From a virus: 39,422 nucleotides of DNA. A program made the translations under genes and the position numbers. Location: positions 1 to 39,422 of the IMG/VR virus record IMGVR_UViG_3300023210_000085, one strand, 5' to 3'. The first letter of the stretch is position 1. Every line of letters starts with the position of its first letter. Positions 1,749 to 28,384 of this stretch are shown here, one piece after another. The notes beneath the pieces were generated by a model. The model did not search any database, was not told where the DNA came from, and worked only from the letters and a program-made list of their open reading frames with translations.

Positions 1749-1777
1749 ATTCTACGCTAGTGTTTTTATTAAGTCAA
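1749..1777 (-). promoter_or_regulatory. Sigma70-type promoter for the 36-aa ORF
   Basis: TTGACT (1777-1772), a 17-base spacer and TAGAAT (1754-1749) are read on the minus strand. The -35 overlaps the nadV stop codon. Confidence 0.5.
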
Positions 1778-3174
1778 GCTTTTTTGAGACTTTTTTGCAC
1801 TTTTTCTCGAATTGTTGCAAAGTTAGTTGTTTTCAACAGCTTGCCGTTCTTGAATACCGTCTCAAGAATGTTATCATCGTATGAACATGTGTCGGCACGA
1901 ACAGTTTGATACGTATCGTCTTGATTCCGGATCAGGGCAAGTCGTCCACGTTTACTTTGCTTGCCGAGATCAGTGATCGGTGCTTTGTACACGTCTCTCC
2001 AACTGTTGTTCACATAGATTGCCGAAGCTTTCATTGCGAACTCCAGCGTGTCGCGGTCGACCATCTGGAGCAATCCGCCGCCTTGGCCGAATGCAATGTT
2101 GCTTGCGGACAATTTCAGTTCCATCATTTTGTCAAGAATGATCTTGACGGTATCAACCGTGATGCCATCGCCTTGGATCACTCGGAAGTAATCGGGCAGA
2201 ACTTTGTATCCCTTGGAGTTCGTGGTGTAACCCACTTTATCCATCAATCGCAAAATGCAGTCGATTGGAACAGTTTCTGGATCACCAGAGTCTGGACGTA
2301 CAATAAGTGTTGCGCCAGAGTCTCTGACATCTTTGAGAAGTTCATCACCCCAAAGATTGCTGCATGCATTATAGATGTCATATGAGTCTGATACACAGGC
2401 AACCATGTTCTCCGGCTTTGCAAACTGTTTGATCATATTGCGAAATGCATCAACTTCTTGGTCAGGACCACCCCATGCCGTGATAGTGGAGTGTTCTGAT
2501 GCTGGAATACTGAACCCTGCCATTTCTTCACCATAGTAGCGTCTGGCGGCGATAACACCTTCGACGGTATCTGTGCCCAAGAAGTTCACCAGATGTGCAC
2601 AACCACCTAGGGCGGCTGTTTCGGGACTTGAGCAACCACGTGCACCGAAATCATGCATCTTGAAGCCGATTTCTGCTGCTGGATCATCTGCGGATTCTAA
2701 TAAAGCATCCCAAATGACCACTTTTGAAGCATAACTATTTGTTGCAACAGTAGTAGGATACCAAATTGCTCGGAGCAAACTTGTTTCCAGATAGCTGGTC
2801 AACCATGGAACGAATGGATCGGTGTTCACCAATTGCAGCATCACGTTACGGTTTGGAAGGACTGTTCCTTCTGGTACTGCCTGAATTTCGACTGGCAGAT
2901 AACCATTGTGTTTGTTCAAGATGTGCATCCAGCCTTCGCGGTTGAATGGTTCGCCGTGTGCGCCCCAAAAGGCTTCGGCTTCATCAATCATTTCTTGGGT
3001 GATTGGTTTGGTGAGATATTCTTTCAGGAACATTTGGAGTCCGAAGACCACTGATTTGTCCCATTTGCCACCACGGCTTTCGATGTATGAACTTACATAC
3101 TCGGTGCCTTCGGGATACTGCAGGAAGTGCCCTGCTTTGTAGGAATCGGTTCTTAGTAGAATGTTAGTTTGCAT
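1774..3174 (-). CDS. nadV: Nicotinamide phosphoribosyltransferase
   Basis: The 466-residue product is a full-length NAMPT/NadV. It condenses nicotinamide with PRPP to give NMN in the cytoplasm, the first step of NAD+ salvage from nicotinamide. Visible family motifs include MHDFGARG near residue 173, the conserved histidine segment SEHSTITAWGG near 228, SDSYDIYN near 263, and the phosphoribosyl-binding segment IVRPDSGDP near 292. Length fits the roughly 470-490 residues of the family. AAGGAGA precedes the ATG at 3174. The gene is last in an operon behind the NMN adenylyltransferase, so together they rebuild NAD+ from nicotinamide in two steps. Confidence 0.97.
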   Translation of the reverse strand: MQTNILLRTDSYKAGHFLQYPEGTEYVSSYIESRGGKWDKSVVFGLQMFLKEYLTKPITQEMIDEAEAFWGAHGEPFNREGWMHILNKHNGYLPVEIQAVPEGTVLPNRNVMLQLVNTDPFVPWLTSYLETSLLRAIWYPTTVATNSYASKVVIWDALLESADDPAAEIGFKMHDFGARGCSSPETAALGGCAHLVNFLGTDTVEGVIAARRYYGEEMAGFSIPASEHSTITAWGGPDQEVDAFRNMIKQFAKPENMVACVSDSYDIYNACSNLWGDELLKDVRDSGATLIVRPDSGDPETVPIDCILRLMDKVGYTTNSKGYKVLPDYFRVIQGDGITVDTVKIILDKMMELKLSASNIAFGQGGGLLQMVDRDTLEFAMKASAIYVNNSWRDVYKAPITDLGKQSKRGRLALIRNQDDTYQTVRADTCSYDDNILETVFKNGKLLKTTNFATIREKVQKSLKKA

Positions 3175-3187
3175 GATAATCTCCTTA

Positions 3188-3364
3188 TTATGCTTCTTTG
3201 GCCATCAGTCTTTCTAATGGTCTTTTTGGCGCATTTGCCAATTCTTCAATAGCTTCTAGTCTCATGTTTTCAGGACATCCGCAGATAAGATATGCTGCAT
3301 GCATACGTGCCTTATAGCGGTCTTCCGGTGTATCCATTTTTGGTGCCCATCCATATTTCATCAT
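3188..3364 (-). CDS. Small protein between NadM and NadV, 58 aa
   Basis: The start was placed at ATG 3364-3362 because it overlaps the upstream NadM stop as ATGA and has AGGAG seven bases upstream; a longer upstream reading lacks such a signal. The product is basic in its second half (PKRPLERLMAKEA end), contains a CGCPE segment near residue 29 and no known domain. Its position between the two NAD+ enzymes, with overlap and tight spacing, suggests co-translation and a function linked to the pathway, but nothing in the sequence shows what that is. Confidence 0.8.
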   Translation of the reverse strand: MMKYGWAPKMDTPEDRYKARMHAAYLICGCPENMRLEAIEELANAPKRPLERLMAKEA

Positions 3365-4389
3365 GATAATTCTCCTAACATGTCTTGGATAATCCAAAAA
3401 TGGTCCTCGAACATATTCGTAGGCTCAAGTTCACTTAACGGAACCCACTTTGCTTTGTCGGCGTCGTCTGATCCTTTGATCTTCGGCAGACTGGTTTGGT
3501 CTTGAAGTTTCATATAGAATGCTTGTGTGATAATCCGGCCACGTGCTGAACGATATGGATCATCGTATGTTTTCTGTGTTACGATTGATCCACGTAGGAC
3601 CGGTTCCGGAACTTTGATTTTGGTTTCTTCACGAAGTTCCCTAATCATTGCGTCAACCAGAAATTCATCAGGGTTAACAAATCCGCCGGGGATTGCCCAT
3701 TGGCCTTTGCCGGGTTCTGCTCGACGCCGGATCAAAAGGACGTGTCCTGATTGTACGACGACAGCATCAACGGTGTGTTCGATGCGAGGGTATTTTTGTA
3801 CTGACAGTTTGTACTGTTCCACAAAGTAGAACTCTCGCATCAGTTGGTCCATTGTGGGGGTTTCGCGGAAATATTCCAAAAACGTGTCAACGGCTTGTGG
3901 TACCATTCGATGGTAGCTTGCCGGATTGACGCTGAAATAAGTATCGCGGATGTCTGATGCGTTCAGGTTATCAAGGAATGATACATCTTCGAAGTCCCAT
4001 GTTGGGAACAATTTCAGATAGAATGAACTGGAATCTTTGTTGCAGCCGATCAGGCCAATTTTAGGATCATCGGGCAACTCTAGTTCTTGGCACTGAAAGG
4101 CCACGATTTCTTGAACTTGTGCGATCCATCCGTTGTTGTTGTATGTCATGTCGTCCATTGGAACAATGCCCATGCGGCCAGCGGCGTCGGCAGCGGGATT
4201 TGAATCTGCTATCATTTTGCAGCGTTCGTCGTATGTGAATGGGTTTCTGTTGGATCGTGCAGAGTTTGCTGATCCGACGATAACAAGGACGTTATCGGCT
4301 AGTTCTAAGGCACGATCAATGACACGTGTGTGTCCTAGATGCAGTGGCTGGAAGCGCCCAATGTAAACAAGCAAGTCGTATTTTGTCAT
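3361..4389 (-). CDS. nadM: Bifunctional NMN adenylyltransferase / Nudix hydrolase
   Basis: This 342-residue fusion has an N-terminal nucleotidyltransferase (GRFQPLHLGH at 11-20 contains the HxGH ATP-binding motif) that converts NMN and ATP to NAD+. Its C-terminal Nudix domain has the box GGFVNPDEF...RELREET at about 235-256, with the GX5EX7REXXEE pattern intact. The Nudix half of such fusions is typically an ADP-ribose pyrophosphatase. GGAGA lies before the ATG at 4389. A sigma70-type promoter and an overlapping late-type octamer (4650-4687) are upstream. With nadV it forms a two-enzyme NAD+ reconstitution pathway. Confidence 0.96.
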   Translation of the reverse strand: MTKYDLLVYIGRFQPLHLGHTRVIDRALELADNVLVIVGSANSARSNRNPFTYDERCKMIADSNPAADAAGRMGIVPMDDMTYNNNGWIAQVQEIVAFQCQELELPDDPKIGLIGCNKDSSSFYLKLFPTWDFEDVSFLDNLNASDIRDTYFSVNPASYHRMVPQAVDTFLEYFRETPTMDQLMREFYFVEQYKLSVQKYPRIEHTVDAVVVQSGHVLLIRRRAEPGKGQWAIPGGFVNPDEFLVDAMIRELREETKIKVPEPVLRGSIVTQKTYDDPYRSARGRIITQAFYMKLQDQTSLPKIKGSDDADKAKWVPLSELEPTNMFEDHFWIIQDMLGELS

Positions 4390-6645: not shown

Positions 6646-7056
6646 TTATACTTGTGCGTCTACGACAGCAATTCCATCACCTGTGTCATGACCCGGTTCT
6701 GCGGATAATGCTCCAAGGACGTAAGGAATCTTCGTTCCACCGATTGGTGTTGCGACTGGTACGCCTTCATACTGCATTGTTTTGTTGTGCAAGCGTGTAA
6801 CCTGAACAATCGTGGAGTTATCCAGCAATGCATCAATTGACATTTCACCTTCAGCAAGTGTTGTCTTGTTAACAAGCTTAAGTGTTTCAGTTGTTGTATC
6901 ATCAGTTACACTAAAGCGTGTGTTACTGTTTTGGCTAACAATGTAAGCCTGTGTGGTTGTTGAAAGAACTTGTGATTCTCCCGTGAAGCGGTAACGTGTT
7001 ACGCTAACTCTTCCTGTTCCAAGTCCGATACGATCTTGATGAATTGGTCTTCCCAT
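6646..7056 (-). CDS. Probable virion structural protein, 136 aa
   Basis: The 136-residue product starts MGRPIHQDRIGLGTG and is rich in Thr and Val, with a beta-strand pattern. Small proteins of this kind accompany structural genes in T4-like phages of marine and alphaproteobacterial hosts, but I can name no specific homologue. AAGGAG precedes the ATG at 7056. A late-type octamer (7141-7134) and a leader of three hairpins lie upstream, and a strong terminator follows. It thus forms a one-gene late unit. The structural role is inference from the late promoter and composition. Confidence 0.7.
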   Translation of the reverse strand: MGRPIHQDRIGLGTGRVSVTRYRFTGESQVLSTTTQAYIVSQNSNTRFSVTDDTTTETLKLVNKTTLAEGEMSIDALLDNSTIVQVTRLHNKTMQYEGVPVATPIGGTKIPYVLGALSAEPGHDTGDGIAVVDAQV

Positions 7057-7078
7057 TTTATTTCTCCTTTATGGTCCA

Positions 7079-7141
7079 GTCTATGGACTACGGGGTTGGT
7101 TCCCCATAAACTAGCATTATGCTAGCAGTGTTGTATTTATC
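7079..7141 (-). promoter_or_regulatory. Late promoter with three-hairpin leader
   Basis: GATAAATA (7141-7134) is followed, from about six bases after the predicted start, by three perfect hairpins: CTAGCA/TGCTAG (7125-7111), GGGG/CCCC (7105-7092) and GTC/GAC (7088-7079). The AAGGAG Shine-Dalgarno comes next and is left unpaired. Confidence 0.5.
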
Positions 7142-8123: not shown

Positions 8124-8491
8124 GAGAATTTTTTGACCACAGCACGATGAAGGATTAAGAACGCCAGAAGAACTGACATATACCAGCTTGCCCCTGATAG
8201 CCCATAATATACCAATGAAAACGATACTGCCAGCCAAACCATTGCTGGCAAAACCCTGCCGCTTTGGTCAGTGAAGGCTGCTCGACGTTCTTCGACTGAT
8301 ACAACGGTATCTAGTTCTTCCGGAGAAAGAAGCAACAAACGTGCGGTAGCGATACAGCCTGACAAAAGAATACCAGACTGTATCAGCGCGGCGATGTTCA
8401 ATGTCGTCAAATACATAGGTTCGACTTGCCTAACCCATGGCGTCGTAGCCAGCCCAAACATGAACCCATACAGTAGGTATGCTATATTCAT
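8120..8491 (-). CDS. Small integral membrane protein, 123 aa
   Basis: The sequence shows hydrophobic helices at about residues 1-20, 28-55, 78-97 and 100-117, with a charged loop (LSPEELDTVVSVEERRAAFTD) between the second and third. That fits a four-helix inner-membrane protein with no recognised family. ATG 8491 overlaps the kinase stop as ATGA. Its early operon context argues against a holin and suggests a role in altering the host membrane, which is inference only. Confidence 0.75.
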   Translation of the reverse strand: MNIAYLLYGFMFGLATTPWVRQVEPMYLTTLNIAALIQSGILLSGCIATARLLLLSPEELDTVVSVEERRAAFTDQSGRVLPAMVWLAVSFSLVYYGLSGASWYMSVLLAFLILHRAVVKKFS

Positions 8492-8970
8492 TCTTTGATC
8501 TCGATGATTTCATCAAATCCTTCGTCTCTGGTAGGGGGAACGTAATTTCCTATCATAGATTCCATGACATGACTTGGTATCGTTTTGCCCGGACGTGAGT
8601 CCAATCGACGCTGGAGTTCTTCTGCTTCCGGAATAGGAAACACCACGGCCACCTTTCGGTAGTCTTTGGGAATTTTGCTCAACTTGCCCATACGGGCTTT
8701 GGCACTCAGGTTGGTTTGATCCCAAAAGATGTCCATACCGGCGAAGGTAGCTTCCGCCAGAGACTCATTCATACAGGCGGTTGCTTCCTTGATGGTGCTT
8801 TGGAAAACATCGTTGTACGTTTTGCCTTCTGCATCGGCAGCGCCTTGAATGTACTCGTCGGTTGAATACAAAAATACGGATTCGTTGACATAATCGTCCA
8901 TCAGACAACAAGTCCAAGTAGATTTACCGGACGCTGGAACGCCTACGAGCATGTATACAGTTTTAGTCAT
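8488..8970 (-). CDS. P-loop kinase, polynucleotide-kinase-like, 160 aa
   Basis: The start was placed at ATG 8970 (MTKTVYMLVGVPASGKST), with AGAGG upstream, because this puts the Walker A motif GVPASGKST at the expected N-terminal position. STDEYI and the FWDQTNLSAKARMGKL segment near residue 80 match the AAA_33/zeta-like kinase and 5'-polynucleotide kinase domain, and a RRLDSRPGKTIP lid segment follows. It lacks the C-terminal phosphatase domain of T4 Pnk. It sits in the operon with an RnlA-type RNA ligase, which suggests a role in RNA end healing and repair. Other P-loop kinase substrates are possible. Confidence 0.8.
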   Translation of the reverse strand: MTKTVYMLVGVPASGKSTWTCCLMDDYVNESVFLYSTDEYIQGAADAEGKTYNDVFQSTIKEATACMNESLAEATFAGMDIFWDQTNLSAKARMGKLSKIPKDYRKVAVVFPIPEAEELQRRLDSRPGKTIPSHVMESMIGNYVPPTRDEGFDEIIEIKE

Positions 8971-9137
8971 CTTTGAATGCCTCTTTTCTTCCTTTTGGCG
9001 TTGCGATTGCGTAAGTTGTTCGATGGGTACCGCTTGCTGGGAGACGTTTGAATTCAATCAACGCTTTTCCTTCAAGCTTTTTCAAAGCAGGATCGTACTA
9101 AAAGTTCGTGGCGACGTTCTTTGCTATTCTGATACAT
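8963..9137 (-). pseudogene. Small gene interrupted by a +1 frameshift (about 57 aa if restored)
   Basis: ATG 9137 has a good AAGGA Shine-Dalgarno and opens a frame that stops after 21 codons (TGA 9074-9072). Immediately afterwards another frame, lacking an ATG, encodes LEGKALIEFKRLPASG... and continues to TAA 8965-8963, overlapping the kinase ATG. Removing one A from the AAAAA run near 9081 joins both into a smooth protein of about 57 residues. It could be a decayed gene, a sequencing error or a programmed shift. Alternatively the second part starts at TTG 9061, which has its own AAGGA. Confidence 0.45.
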
Positions 9138-9324
9138 CATTCCATCCTTCTTCTATGATTTCACGTACATGGTCATATAACAAACCATCACCGGGACGCA
9201 TGGCTAAACTGCCTTGCACAACAACGTTGTTGATTGTCTCGGCACATAGATTTTCCTTCATGGCAACAACCGCCAACCGAAGTCGTTCGGCCTTGCTGGG
9301 TGGTTTTGGTTTACGTTTGGCCAT
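9124..9324 (-). CDS. Small basic protein, 66 aa
   Basis: The second ATG (9324) is preferred over the one at 9330 because GGGAG lies seven bases upstream of it and only one or two from the first. The N-terminus is strongly basic and proline-rich (MAKRKPKPPSKAERLRL), followed by a helical segment and an acidic end (VREIIEEGWNDVSE). It overlaps the end of the RNA ligase gene by 14 bases. No family is recognised. The charge pattern could suit nucleic-acid binding, which is a guess. Confidence 0.75.
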   Translation of the reverse strand: MAKRKPKPPSKAERLRLAVVAMKENLCAETINNVVVQGSLAMRPGDGLLYDHVREIIEEGWNDVSE

Positions 9325-10567
9325 CGTCATTCTCCCAATAGTGTTTGATCAAATCGTACTTAACGTTCTTGCTCAAGTGCCGCTCAACGTATGCCATGAA
9401 AATCTCACGAGGATCGCGGTCAAAGTCCCACATCTTGAAATACAAACCTTTGTCAAATTCGAGTTCAAGATCAGCCATCGCAAATTCTTTGCGACTATAC
9501 GTACGATGGAAGTACAACATGTCCGATGCCAACTTGGCAACAGAAAGGTTGAACCCTTTCCAGAACATACGCTCGAAATCATCAACCATTTGCAAATCTT
9601 CTGGAAGGATGAATGCTTTAGCATCGTCCAAGTTTTCATTCACAATCAATTCAACAAGCTTACGGTTGCTGCTGATGATATCCTTGGTGCGGTGTAACTG
9701 AACATACCATTCACCTTTGATCTTCAACATATGACCATCGTCAAACCGGATGACATAACCTTCAGTGCCTTCCAGATCACGTGCATCGTCCAAGAACTCT
9801 TGCATGTTTTCCACAGTACCCTCGACCAACTTGATCACAGGGATGTTGTACGGGTCTGCTAGCGTATGCATTCCGCCGTGGGTGTGATACTTACCGGTGT
9901 TTTGATGACGAATTGCAGTCAGCACCATGTTATCGACCGGATGATCGATCACGATTTTGTCAGAGTTCGACAACCATTCAAAGATTGGAGTCAACTTAGA
10001 CTGATGCAGATCGTATGCAAAGTCACTGTACCACGGATGTACGGATGCCATTGCCTGTAATTTAGGGATAGAATGAGTTTGTTGGTATCGCTTGACAAAC
10101 AGTGATGCACGTTCTGCAGTCTCAGTTGCATGTCCCATCTTGGTACCCCAATGAACGGTGTCATCGAAGATCAATGGAGTGATCATTGAGCCATCCAACT
10201 TCTCAAGGATAACATGAGGAAGGCTGATGTCGATCAGGTGCATTTGAGTTTCGTCGCGTTCGTTTACATTGAAGAACTTGTGATATCGACGTGCGGCGAC
10301 TTCTCCGGTATCGGCATAGAACACCATACCACGAAGTTCACGTAGAACAGTTGCAGCATAATCATCAAGAGTTTCTGGAATACCGTCGTGCTCAATGTCA
10401 CCATTGGTCAATCCAACCATCCCGATTGGCGGGAAGGTATCAGGCATGTTCACCATATAGTTCACGATCAGGAATGGGCCTCGTTCGGCCACGATGAATT
10501 CATCCTTCCCTTCGATGATAGGATAAATTTCACTGATGTTAGTTATATGTGGAAACGTGTAGTGCAT
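9311..10567 (-). CDS. rnlA: RNA ligase, T4 RnlA family
   Basis: The 418-residue product seals 3'-OH and 5'-phosphate RNA ends in the cytoplasm using ATP. The nucleotidyltransferase motif LEKLDGSM has the adenylated lysine at residue 123. Further motifs are the FEW segment, EGYVIRF (motif IV) and the motif V region LKIKGEWYVQLH; a helical C-terminal domain as in T4 Rnl1 follows. Length is somewhat above T4 Rnl1 (374). I chose ATG 10567, preceded by GAGAG, over an upstream ATG that would overlap the 55-aa gene. In T4 the enzyme repairs tRNA nicked in the anticodon loop; here it shares an operon with a P-loop kinase. Confidence 0.93.
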   Translation of the reverse strand: MHYTFPHITNISEIYPIIEGKDEFIVAERGPFLIVNYMVNMPDTFPPIGMVGLTNGDIEHDGIPETLDDYAATVLRELRGMVFYADTGEVAARRYHKFFNVNERDETQMHLIDISLPHVILEKLDGSMITPLIFDDTVHWGTKMGHATETAERASLFVKRYQQTHSIPKLQAMASVHPWYSDFAYDLHQSKLTPIFEWLSNSDKIVIDHPVDNMVLTAIRHQNTGKYHTHGGMHTLADPYNIPVIKLVEGTVENMQEFLDDARDLEGTEGYVIRFDDGHMLKIKGEWYVQLHRTKDIISSNRKLVELIVNENLDDAKAFILPEDLQMVDDFERMFWKGFNLSVAKLASDMLYFHRTYSRKEFAMADLELEFDKGLYFKMWDFDRDPREIFMAYVERHLSKNVKYDLIKHYWENDDGQT

Positions 10568-10574
10568 TGTACTC

Positions 10575-10742
10575 TCAATTCTTAGACCAAGGAGCGTTAG
10601 TGCCCGTTTTGCGTGGGATACCCCTGAATGGATCATCCTCTGCTATATCATTCCAGAACTTCATTCGTTTATCGTGTTCCACCTGCTGTTGTAGCTGGTA
10701 TTCTTTATCACGAAGTTCTCGAATTGTTGTTTTTTTGGCCAT
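10575..10742 (-). CDS. Small charged protein at the head of the RNA ligase operon, 55 aa
   Basis: A 56-codon frame from ATG 10742 to TGA 10577-10575 starts MAKKTTIRELRDKEY and continues as a charged helix (QLQQQVEHDKRMKFW) with a C-terminal PFRGIPRKTG segment. It has no clear Shine-Dalgarno. A consensus promoter (10749-10776) ends six bases before the ATG, so the mRNA should start at the initiation codon. It is the first gene of the unit that continues into rnlA, eight bases downstream. No known family. Confidence 0.75.
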   Translation of the reverse strand: MAKKTTIRELRDKEYQLQQQVEHDKRMKFWNDIAEDDPFRGIPRKTGTNAPWSKN

Positions 10743-14594: not shown

Positions 14595-14663
14595 TATAAA
14601 TATAGATGTAGTTCACGATGCGCAAACATCCAACTACTCTAACGTCTGGAAGGACAATCAGCA
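14595..14663 (+). promoter_or_regulatory. Late promoter and conserved structured leader of HNH gene
   Basis: TATAAATA (14595-14602) is followed by a hairpin whose outer stem GTAGTT/AACTAC (14608-14613 / 14632-14637) begins at the predicted start, with an inner GATG/CATC stem. A block of about 28 bases then runs to the ATG. This block and the stem recur before the HNH gene at 27767, where one stem pair changes from T-A to G-C. Confidence 0.6.
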
Positions 14664-15467
14664 ATGTATTTACACATAAATTTCAGCAACAAGTTTCTTT
14701 TGAACAAGTATACCAAGTGGTATTTTAACATAATACTAGAAGCACAATCAAGGTCTCCGTTACCTCGGGGAGAAACCGAACATCATCATGTGTTGCCTAA
14801 ATCATTATGGCCAGAGTATCAGAAGTTATCAATACACGACTGGAACGGAGCACACATAACCCATAAGGAACATTTTATATGTCATTGGTTATTGACGAAA
14901 ATGGTCAGTGGTACCGATAAAATACCTATTTACCATGCGTTTCATTGGATGTCAGTCTCGTCGCCCACACATTCAAGGAGATACACAAGCAAACAATATT
15001 CAATAGCCAAACAATATCTCTCATTGGCTAGAAAAGAGAGATTGAAAGATAAAACCAATCCATTTATCAGTAGAAAGGGACCATCAAATCATAATTGGGG
15101 AAGAAAACATTCAGCCGAAACCAAAATGTTGCAACGGATATCGAAACTTGGTGATGGCAATCCGGCAAAGCGCGATGATGTTCGAAAGAAGATAAGTGAC
15201 TCGCTGTTATCTCATTACAAAACACACGAGAATCCATTCAAACATAAAACCCATTCAGATGAAACTAAACAATTGATGCGAGATCAAATCGATCCGGATC
15301 GATTTACTGGTGACAAAAACCCAATGGCCAATCTAGAAACAAGACGAAAAGTAGGTGATACGCGACGTGGCAAATGCTGGATTACAAATGACATCACTAA
15401 TCAACTAGTTTCTAAATCCACGGCCTTGCCAGATGGGTGGAGAAAGGGTTTTACTAAGAGAAAATAA
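14664..15467 (+). CDS. HNH homing endonuclease with NUMOD3 repeats, 267 aa
   Basis: The N-terminal domain contains the catalytic pattern ETEHHHVLPKSLW (about 37-49) and ITHKEHFICHWLL, the H-H...N/H...H arrangement of phage HNH endonucleases. Two NUMOD3-like helical DNA-binding repeats follow (GRKHSAETKMLQRISK and KTHSDETKQLM), then a WITND...LPDGWRKG tail. It would nick or cut a specific site and promote its own spread. AAGGAC precedes the ATG. The stop codon ends at 15467, exactly abutting the end of the convergent DNA ligase gene at 15468. It is a paralogue of the gene at 27767. Confidence 0.93.
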   Translation: MYLHINFSNKFLLNKYTKWYFNIILEAQSRSPLPRGETEHHHVLPKSLWPEYQKLSIHDWNGAHITHKEHFICHWLLTKMVSGTDKIPIYHAFHWMSVSSPTHSRRYTSKQYSIAKQYLSLARKERLKDKTNPFISRKGPSNHNWGRKHSAETKMLQRISKLGDGNPAKRDDVRKKISDSLLSHYKTHENPFKHKTHSDETKQLMRDQIDPDRFTGDKNPMANLETRRKVGDTRRGKCWITNDITNQLVSKSTALPDGWRKGFTKRK

Positions 15468-17066: not shown

Positions 17067-17507
17067 TTAAGGGTGAAGGTCGAAGTTGCCCAAGATCAGC
17101 GGCAACATTGTATCAGTGTTCTTGTCGGGACAAAAGACGTATGCACAAGTGTCCATGGGACCGTAGAATACCGCTTCGGCATCCTTGATCGGGTATGTGG
17201 GATCATTGACAACACCTGCAACATATCCAGTGGCGTTAGCGACCTGAACTGCGGCATTCATCTGTTTGCCATCCACTGCCAGTACCAGAACAGTGCCGAA
17301 CCCTTGTGGAGTGCTTGTGCGCCATTCTGCGACACCCTTGGAAATATCCTTGGACAGTTTCTTGGCAGTTGTTTTTTGTACGATATCATACACGAAAGCA
17401 TTCGAAGCGTGTGACGCTTGCGCCATCGCTTTGCCGGGGTTCATAGAGTCCAGATCATCGCGCATCAGGATGTACAGGACAGGGAGTGTTTCAGTTTGTT
17501 CAGTCAT
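17067..17507 (-). CDS. Peptidyl-tRNA hydrolase, Pth2 family
   Basis: The 146-residue product carries the Pth2 signature: YILMRDDLDSMNPGKAMAQASHAS near residues 12-35 contains the conserved GK-A-Q--HA pattern, and VAGVVNDPTYPI supplies the later conserved segment. Pth2 releases tRNA from prematurely dropped peptidyl-tRNA in the cytoplasm. The family is typical of archaea and eukaryotes and is scattered in phages; most bacteria use Pth1. AGGAAC precedes ATG 17507. It fits with the tmRNA and the RNA ligase as part of a translation-maintenance set. Confidence 0.85.
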   Translation of the reverse strand: MTEQTETLPVLYILMRDDLDSMNPGKAMAQASHASNAFVYDIVQKTTAKKLSKDISKGVAEWRTSTPQGFGTVLVLAVDGKQMNAAVQVANATGYVAGVVNDPTYPIKDAEAVFYGPMDTCAYVFCPDKNTDTMLPLILGNFDLHP

Positions 17508-19704: not shown

Positions 19705-19724
19705 GCGTTTTATGAAAATAAAGT

Positions 19725-19754
19725 GGGGCCAGTTCTGTTGCTAGGTCTGGCCCC
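19725..19754 (-). terminator. Terminator hairpin of the tmRNA gene
   Basis: GGGGCCAG pairs with CTGGCCCC across a 14-base loop; on the minus strand ACTTTATTTTC follows. It could also be the 3' stem of the tmRNA coding piece. Confidence 0.55.
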
Positions 19755-19775
19755 GAACCCCGATACTAAGGTAGC

Positions 19776-19814
19776 TTACGCTGCCATTAGCTCATATGCA
19801 CGATTGTCGTTTGC
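19776..19814 (-). other. tmRNA tag reading frame
   Basis: Twelve codons from GCA (19814) to GCG, then TAA, give ANDNRAYELMAA. The start AND and the end AA match the ends of known tmRNA tags. The A-rich stretch just upstream also matches the usual context. Confidence 0.8.
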
Positions 19815-20060
19815 TGCATTTGCAATTTTTGAACTGTTAAGGCCGTATCTAACCTACTATCTCCACATCACTATTCAATGCCAATCGATACCCAGTTCAT
19901 CCCCATAAAAAAGAACACGATAATATCTTCCTGCGGCATATGCCGAAACGCCCAGAAGATCGGTCTTTCGGTCCACACCGTCATGTTCTTATTGGTGGAG
20001 ATGGGCGAAGTCGAATCGCCGTCTTGGCCACCTTTCGATCTGCTTCATCAACAGTATCTA

Positions 20061-20091
20061 TATTTATACTCCAATAGGAGAATCAAGTCAA
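20061..20091 (-). promoter_or_regulatory. Dual early/late promoter of tmRNA
   Basis: TTGACT (20091-20086), a 17-base spacer and TATAAA (20068-20063) form a sigma70-type promoter. The same site contains the late octamer TATAAATA (20068-20061). The tmRNA could thus be made throughout infection. Confidence 0.6.
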
Positions 20092-20637
20092 GTTATTTCT
20101 TACAATATGGAAAAATTCTTCTACATGGGATGCATTCAGATTATTTTTCAACCAGTTTACGCTTACGCTAACAAATTGAACATTCCCCATAACATACCCC
20201 TTCGAGGAATCAATCCTATCTAGTGATGCTAGATAATTCTTACTCACGGTGGCGTTGCCACTCCAGTGAGGAAGGATCAGGTCTACGTTAGTAAAAGCAC
20301 ATTTACCGCGCTGCGCACCCCATAATTCTTTTAAATACGGGAGATTCAAATTGGTAGTGTCGAACCGGCCTTCGCTAATTCGCATATCTATTCTGCGCAA
20401 GAATCCCCTGAACCCGGTATATTCGTCAACGCGGTTATGACTTATTATCTGTAGGTGTTTCTTGTTTTCTTCACCGTGCATCCATTCGAGTAAATGATCA
20501 TTATTTCGATACGTTGCTGCACATTTCAATGAACAGTAGAAGTTTGTTTTTCCGTTACGACGTTGCCGATCAATTTCTTTCTTTGGTTTCTCAACAGATG
20601 AATCACACCCATGACATATAATAGTAGTTAATTTCAT
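20083..20637 (-). CDS. HNH homing endonuclease with N-terminal zinc finger, 184 aa
   Basis: An N-terminal treble-clef-like segment has CHGC (residues 8-11) and CSLKC (35-39). A C-terminal HNH region has CAFTNVDLILPHW and the conserved ASLDRIDSSKGYVMGNVQFVS, where DR-D, N and H-like positions are typical of the family. ATG 20637 has GGAGG upstream. This Shine-Dalgarno lies in one arm of an 11-bp hairpin with a late promoter in its loop, so only late transcripts should be translated well. The gene sits right behind the tmRNA promoter. Confidence 0.9.
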   Translation of the reverse strand: MKLTTIICHGCDSSVEKPKKEIDRQRRNGKTNFYCSLKCAATYRNNDHLLEWMHGEENKKHLQIISHNRVDEYTGFRGFLRRIDMRISEGRFDTTNLNLPYLKELWGAQRGKCAFTNVDLILPHWSGNATVSKNYLASLDRIDSSKGYVMGNVQFVSVSVNWLKNNLNASHVEEFFHIVRNNLT

Positions 20638-27766: not shown

Positions 27767-28384
27767 ATGTATTTAGATAACAAATACACCACTTGGTACA
27801 ACAATATCATTCATCTAGCACAAAACCGAGAAAAGCCATCTTGCTACGTAGAGAGACATCATGTGCTCCCACACGCTCTGGGCGGGGATAATACCATCGA
27901 TAATTTAGTATATCTGACCGCCAGAGAACATTTCATTTGTCATCAGCTATTGCCCAATATGGTATCTGGCAAAGAGAAAAAGAAAATGATCTATGCTCTT
28001 TGGCTGATGTCAAACAGATCAAGTGATAATCAAACAAGATATGTTCCTTCGTCTAAAATATATGCGCATATTCGTGAAGAATTTTCCACCATGATGTCGA
28101 AGAAAATGGCTGGGGCTAATAATCCGATGTTTGGAAGGGTGCCATCTGTCCAAGAGATGCAGAATAGACTAGATGGAGCAAAGCGACGTTTGCCACCAAC
28201 ACGCGAAACTGTTAAGAAAAGGGCGTTGTCTAACACAGGCAAAAAACGTTCAGATGAGAGTAGGCAGAAAATGCGAGACGCTTGGACTAAGAAAAAGAAA
28301 ATCTCCTGTGCGTATTGTGGGATTATGTGTCCACCACATCTTCATAATAGGTGGCACGGAGACAACTGCAAACATAAAGTATGA
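27767..28384 (+). CDS. HNH homing endonuclease, 205 aa
   Basis: The N-terminal HNH region contains YVERHHVLPHALGGDNTIDNLVYLTAREHFICHQLL, the H-H...N...H pattern. NNPMFGR and two NUMOD3-like segments (RETVKKRALSNTGKKRSDESRQKMRDAW) follow. The C-terminus adds a small zinc-finger-like CAYCG...HNRWHGDNC. It is a paralogue of the gene at 14664 (both start MYL and share the leader) with a different C-terminus. Its stop codon ends at 28384, directly abutting the stop of the convergent exonuclease gene at 28385. Confidence 0.93.
   Translation: MYLDNKYTTWYNNIIHLAQNREKPSCYVERHHVLPHALGGDNTIDNLVYLTAREHFICHQLLPNMVSGKEKKKMIYALWLMSNRSSDNQTRYVPSSKIYAHIREEFSTMMSKKMAGANNPMFGRVPSVQEMQNRLDGAKRRLPPTRETVKKRALSNTGKKRSDESRQKMRDAWTKKKKISCAYCGIMCPPHLHNRWHGDNCKHKV

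Follow-up and report, generated by a model that had tools for sequence, protein, structure and literature searches.

A circularly permuted tmRNA gene of alphaproteobacterial type on phage DNA

A permuted tmRNA gene on the minus strand of a viral record

The virus record IMGVR_UViG_3300023210_000085, analyzed here over its whole length of 39,422 bases and referred to as the window, carries what is very probably a complete gene for a transfer-messenger RNA (tmRNA, encoded by ssrA) of the circularly permuted, two-piece kind. As judged from its sequence, the RNA resembles the tmRNAs of Alphaproteobacteria and would work as an ordinary tmRNA that provides extra capacity for ribosome rescue. The window is viral, and its genes are phage genes. 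A permuted tmRNA with an alphaproteobacterial-type layout had been proposed in a first-pass annotation of this DNA, which gave no strand, and searches with the Rfam models confirm both the permutation and the type. The model tmRNA_permuted (RF04321) matches the minus strand at 20055..19776 over its entire length (model positions 1-213) with 90.8 bits and an E-value of 2e-16 (gathering score 47), the acceptor piece preceding the coding piece. The model alpha_tmRNA (RF01849) likewise matches over its entire length, at minus strand 20095..19722, with 72.9 bits and an E-value of 4e-18 (cut-off 50). Because the alpha model exceeds its cut-off while the beta model (50.1 bits, cut-off 84) and the cyano model (26.1 bits, cut-off 70) stay below theirs, an alphaproteobacterial type is supported as the best class for the RNA.

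Every part of the tmRNA sits on the minus strand. In the order of the RNA these are the promoter, the acceptor piece with its T-arm and CCA end, the intervening segment, the strand GGGGAUG, a D-like region, the P2 helix, the tag frame and a 3′ hairpin, with the following positions:

20061..20091, minus strand: promoter, composed of TTGACT (20091..20086), a 17-nucleotide (nt) spacer and TATAAATA (20068..20061); read from the sequence and from an offset common to other viral permuted tmRNAs
19993..20055, minus strand: acceptor piece, 5′ end approximate and taken from the start of the RF04321 match; ends in an encoded CCA (19995..19993; ACCA 19996..19993)
20050..20056, minus strand: strand UACUGUU of a distal helix between the pieces, partner GAUAGUA; from a group-level pairing excess over swapped partners
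20024..20028, minus strand: 3′ strand GCCAA of the proximal P2 helix, partner 19884..19880; covarying helix in 107 viral sequences
20020..20004, minus strand: T-arm GGCGA-UUCGACU-UCGCC with 5/5 pairs; from the sequence, covarying over the 107 viral sequences
20003..19997, minus strand: 3′ strand CAUCUCC of the acceptor stem, with U70 of the G3-U70 pair; from the sequence and the covariation set
19905..19992, minus strand: intervening segment of 88 nt between CCA and GGGGAUG; its removal is predicted from known two-piece tmRNAs
19722..19904, minus strand: coding piece, 3′ end approximate and taken from the end of the RF01849 match
19904..19898, minus strand: 5′ strand GGGGAUG of the acceptor stem, with G3 of the G3-U70 pair; from the sequence and the covariation set
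19880..19884, minus strand: 5′ strand UUGGC of the proximal P2 helix; covarying helix in the 107 viral sequences
19855..19861, minus strand: strand GAUAGUA of the distal helix between the pieces; from the same group-level pairing excess
19817..19776, minus strand: tag frame AANDNRAYELMAA followed by UAA (GCA GCA AAC GAC AAT CGT GCA TAT GAG CTA ATG GCA GCG TAA); from the sequence, RF04321/RF01849 and ARAGORN
19725..19754, minus strand: 3′ hairpin GGGGCCAG-ACCUAGCAACAGAA-CUGGCCCC, homologous to the 3′ end of alphaproteobacterial coding pieces; from the RF01849 alignment and local matches

The acceptor stem that joins the two pieces forms 7/7 pairs including G3-U70, so that the pairing of GGGGATG with CATCTCC noted in the first-pass annotation is found as described. 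The tag reads (A)ANDNRAYELMAA. At least one in-frame alanine codon lies upstream of ANDNRAYELMAA as a possible resume codon, the candidates at 19823, 19817 and 19814 all being in frame. At the other end of the coding piece, the alignment shows a close match of the 3′ hairpin to the 3′ end of the alphaproteobacterial RNA (GGGGUUCGG...ACCURGCAACAGAA...CCACU).

Pairing between the two pieces is conserved among viral sequences

Covariation was analyzed in 107 distinct viral sequences, aligned by three anchors: the CCA end, the initial GGGG and the CGA within the D-like loop. The viral loci had been gathered by two acceptor-stem patterns and from contigs with a related ribonucleotide reductase; as the patterns fix parts of them, the pairs of the T-loop and the acceptor stem are partly ascertained. 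The P2 helix played no role in choosing the sequences. In its proximal part, each of 7 positions is paired in 95-105 of the 107 sequences, compared to 50-89 when the partners are shuffled. At each of these positions none of 500 shuffles, which do not model relatedness between the sequences, reaches the observed value, and as many as five standard pair types occur per position. The distal helix is visible at the level of the group, with a mean score of 5.73 compared to 4.94 for swapped partners and a shuffle maximum of 5.15. Thus, stable pairing outside the acceptor stem is present in the viral set, where both P2 and the distal helix are supported; pairing confined to the acceptor stem, which the first-pass annotation had named as evidence against a tmRNA, is not what these sequences show.

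A predicted dedicated promoter precedes the acceptor piece

The promoter ends just ahead of the acceptor piece, at an offset of −88 from the acceptor strand. TTGAC[AT] is found in 34 of the 135 distinct upstream regions from viruses (7.1 expected), mostly at −88 to −91 from the acceptor strand, and many of these boxes have a TATAAT at the proper distance. The composite TTGAC..TATAAATA is also present upstream of the viral tmRNAs L115 and L193 and, somewhat farther away, of L043. Since its position matches that of the promoters of other viral tmRNAs, a dedicated promoter of the predicted sigma-70 type is well supported. A generic promoter scan leaves it out (the −10 box ends in A). A looser pattern, TTGAC-n-TA...T, has 12 sites on the minus strand of the window and none on the plus strand, in line with promoters that serve mostly minus-strand genes.

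The first-pass annotation had read the string TTGACT-17-TATAAATA as a dual early/late promoter. The string itself and its early, sigma-70-type half hold, and additional late use is a plausible interpretation of the sequence. TATAAATA occurs at 7 sites in the window (about 2.4 expected), and several other viral tmRNAs carry the box at −66 to −73. A late promoter deduced from this enrichment was set aside, because sequence cannot separate a T4-type late box from a sigma-70 −10 box.

Origin and spread of the viral genes

When the pieces of the window tmRNA are aligned locally one by one, other viral tmRNAs give the best scores for the acceptor piece and for the 5′ portion of the coding piece, and alpha-type bacterial loci give the best scores for the 3′ segment. 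All of the 66 parsed bacterial loci carry the T-loops GGCGGUA, GGCAGUA, UGCGAUU or GGCAGAA and other acceptor stems, whereas the T-loop in the window is UUCGACU; its intervening segment of 88 nt compares to a bacterial median of 32 nt. Because the T-loop differs from those of the sampled alpha-type bacteria, we refer to the RNA as alpha-like and not as a plain copy of a host gene. These matches suggest a chimera in which a viral-type tRNA-like half has been joined to an alphaproteobacterial-type tail, suggested rather than proven since the alignments are short and local and the sample is limited.

Similar genes are widespread in viruses: at least 94 viral stretches carry the GGGGAUG acceptor pattern, about 95 or more were found in viral contigs for each of the two acceptor types, and RF04321 matches occur in 7 of the 15 contigs that encode a related ribonucleotide reductase. 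In GTDB genomes the GGGGAUG pattern yielded 3 stretches, all of them standard one-piece tmRNAs with a chance GGGGATG downstream. The pattern also requires a spacer of 73-103 nt and a UUCGA T-loop, both mostly missing from the sampled bacterial permuted genes. A reading of the GGGGAUG stem as a purely viral signature was rejected, as these demands on spacer and T-loop confound the stem. It is also conceivable, if rather unlikely, that a tmRNA lineage particular to viruses has long persisted and evolves by swaps of whole modules, and that an HNH nuclease gene adjoining the tmRNA (see below) could mobilize it here.

The related phage contigs L111 and L114 share 98.8-99.1% identity along some 21 kb. 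Their tmRNAs (L111:21546-21985 and L114:21498-22093) have an identical tag and 3′ end, yet their tRNA-like halves and the 5′ portions of their coding pieces are completely different; moreover, L114 keeps a remnant of an L111-type acceptor piece upstream of its tmRNA. This difference may represent a natural module swap or an assembly join. The tag sequence common to both is found in only these two contigs, and because no other contig carries it, an assembly join has to be considered. Separately, two bacterial genomes, G218 and G305 (L291 and L292), have two permuted tmRNA matches each; the second copies, of 267 and 280 nt, are longer than most and may lie on mobile elements.

Proposed function and alternative explanations

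From the sequence, the structure with its covariation, the placement of the promoter and the conservation among viruses, we infer a course of transcription, processing, charging and tagging, and a benefit to the phage. Transcription would start from the gene's own promoter near the 5′ end of the acceptor piece, and host tRNA-processing enzymes would cut out the 88-nt intervening segment to give an acceptor piece and a coding piece, which the acceptor stem and P2 would keep joined. The host alanyl-tRNA synthetase would charge the RNA by way of G3-U70; this step and the removal of the intervening segment are proposed because they are established tmRNA biology. Host SmpB and EF-Tu would bring the charged tmRNA to ribosomes stalled on broken mRNA, where the ribosome would move to the tag frame, add (A)ANDNRAYELMAA and be released, and host proteases would receive the tagged product. 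The benefit is probably a greater rescue capacity while mRNA is degraded during infection. SmpB had no match in any of 48 viral records, which include several of 160-440 kb and may mostly be incomplete, compared to matches in 10 of 14 control genomes, suggesting that the phage tmRNA relies on the SmpB of its host.

Several observations weigh against a working tmRNA. ARAGORN at default settings finds no tmRNA in the window; at 85% of the threshold a permuted tmRNA, c[19685,20085] with the tag AANDNRAYELMAA, emerges as one of 3 matches in the window and with a low score, so that this check, which the first-pass annotation had proposed alongside Infernal, agrees at the relaxed setting only. The window's own P2 letters, GCCAA/UUGGC, account for 5 of the 7 pairs and leave two mismatches, and minimum free energy folds of the locus do not settle uniquely on this helix. 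For the distal helix, 17% of the swapped partners pair equally well with the window alone, which is not significant. Finally, the window is a fragment, and a phage-encoded SmpB could sit outside it.

The lack of SmpB in the viral records would also suit a decoy or inhibitor, that is, a phage RNA which competes for host SmpB or alanyl-tRNA synthetase and thereby blocks trans-translation in the host. There is a precedent in mycobacteriophage DS6A, which likewise encodes a tmRNA relative; it is devoid of a tag coding sequence and inhibits the host tmRNA (PMC11915505). The window and nearly all of its viral relatives keep a full tag frame with a stop codon, which a decoy would not need, and we therefore regard such a role as quite improbable. 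The P2 mismatches and the low ARAGORN score, together with a 3′ hairpin that matches alpha-type bacterial loci best, could alternatively mark a passive relic, an ssrA copy from an alphaproteobacterial host that is decaying and without function. This seems very unlikely to us, as the acceptor stem, T-arm, tag frame, stop codon and promoter are all intact, as the acceptor piece and the 5′ region of the coding piece are nearer to other viral tmRNAs than to the sampled bacterial ones, and as similar genes recur in many phages.

The least credible alternative, raised in the first-pass annotation, is that the phage steers tagged proteins to another protease, or lets them escape proteolysis, by a tag end of its own, LMAA: the tag does end in ELMAA and not in the commonest LAA, and 4 of the 68 genes that lie downstream of other viral tmRNAs encode Clp-protease-like proteins, but MAA ends are as common among distinct bacterial tags (4/42, from one phylum draw that is largely alphaproteobacterial in type) as among viral ones (6/83; Fisher p 0.73), the bacterial tag ANDNFAEGELMAA shares its last five residues with the window tag, and no Clp-like gene was found adjoining the window tmRNA. 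LMAA was consequently rejected as a phage-specific tag end. Hence an ordinary tmRNA acting in ribosome rescue is the function we favor.

Neighboring genes and phage context

Two genes near the tmRNA have a possible connection to it:

20083..20637, minus strand: HNH/endonuclease VII-like protein of 184 amino acids (aa), possibly a homing endonuclease; PHROGs 3322 (3.6e-14), 3118 and 1035
17067..17507, minus strand: PTH2-like peptidyl-tRNA hydrolase, possibly a partner in translation rescue; Pfam PF01981 with 6.7e-07, over the cut-off

The first lies directly upstream of the tmRNA and has no Pfam match; the second lies about 2.2 kb downstream. Neither association is general. PTH2 exceeds the cut-off in only 4 of the 48 records, leading us to reject a general tmRNA-PTH2 partnership, and homing endonucleases were rejected as general tmRNA neighbors, the commonest upstream neighbors being PD-(D/E)XK exonucleases (23/101). 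On the downstream side of viral tmRNAs, the four Clp-like neighbors match the Clp protease family PF00574 and ten of the 68 match cell-wall hydrolases; a motif search aimed at naming the four found nothing.

The window is inferred to be a fragment of a jumbo-like, T4-related phage. Its DnaB-type helicase shares about 50% identity with the one from Pseudomonas phage PA5oct and 46% with the one from Agrobacterium phage Atu_ph07, and the top named match of its ribonucleotide reductase (43%) comes from a 642-kb uncultured phage. The window also encodes a DNA primase, a DNA ligase and a tail spike. A polynucleotide-kinase-like protein and a T4-type RNA ligase 1 (8488-9057 and 9311-10636, minus strand) may act as a pair in RNA repair, in a phage that also has the tmRNA and PTH2. 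A nicotinamide phosphoribosyltransferase (1774-3174) and the adjacent cytidylyltransferase/Nudix protein (3361-4389), both encoded on the minus strand, likely form an NAD+ salvage pair. Two open reading frames (ORFs) with NUMOD3 (14664-15467 and 27767-28384, plus strand) are probable homing endonucleases, the first of them preceded by TATAAATA at 14595. Among RNAs other than the tmRNA, a freshwater-2 RNA (RF02980, 58.2 bits) at 7054-7126 on the minus strand is located directly upstream of a 136-aa ORF without a family match, and a tRNA match (RF00005, 40.4 bits) at 771-841 on the minus strand is called Lys (ctt) by relaxed ARAGORN and missed at default settings.

Comparison with known systems

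Two-piece tmRNAs of phages have already been published, and the gene described here is less new than the first-pass annotation implied. Phage Melnitz carries a two-piece tmRNA of alphaproteobacterial affinity behind an early promoter, and of the 53 such structures reported in phage genomes, 50 came from marine or aquatic samples (PMC9004378). The tmRNA database contains 79 phage sequences among 97,179 tmRNAs (PMC11915505); our counts suggest a much greater abundance of these genes in viral contigs than the database entries indicate. What the window adds is a large phage, outside the described marine T4-like groups, whose permuted tmRNA seems intact and has a promoter to itself. With the apparent dependence on the SmpB of the host and with the module swaps, it becomes testable whether phage tmRNAs act in rescue and which of the two halves has to match the host.

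The tmRNAs of Melnitz, Pelagibacter phage Mosig and related marine phages (PMC9004378) are, like that of the window, phage-encoded, permuted, related to alphaproteobacterial ssrA and placed behind an early (sigma-70) promoter. The phage type is different, however, as the window is jumbo-like with a DnaB about 50% identical to that of PA5oct, and in contrast to the Melnitz type no glutamine riboswitch family reaches its Rfam gathering score in the window. With the bacterial alpha_tmRNA family (RF01849) the window RNA shares the permuted order, the ANDN start of the tag and the 3′ hairpin with its ACCURGCAACAGAA loop, whereas the canonical UUCGACU T-loop, the GGGGAUG acceptor stem and the 88-nt intervening segment set it apart.

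No DNA match to the tmRNA locus was found among named phages by blastn. Large phages of Sinorhizobium provide further parallels. Jumbo phage AP-J-162 has been reported to carry a tmRNA (PMC11242549), and in Sinorhizobium phage Phosso (PV764938.1, 349596-350198, minus strand; our locus L329:2097-2699) we find an unannotated permuted tmRNA with 113 bits. Phosso is likewise a large (jumbo) phage, with a DnaB relative of 45.7% identity and a permuted tmRNA of the alpha type, but its tmRNA differs from that of the window in having the bacterial T-loop GGCGGUA, a long intervening segment and the tag ANDNVSTKVALAA.
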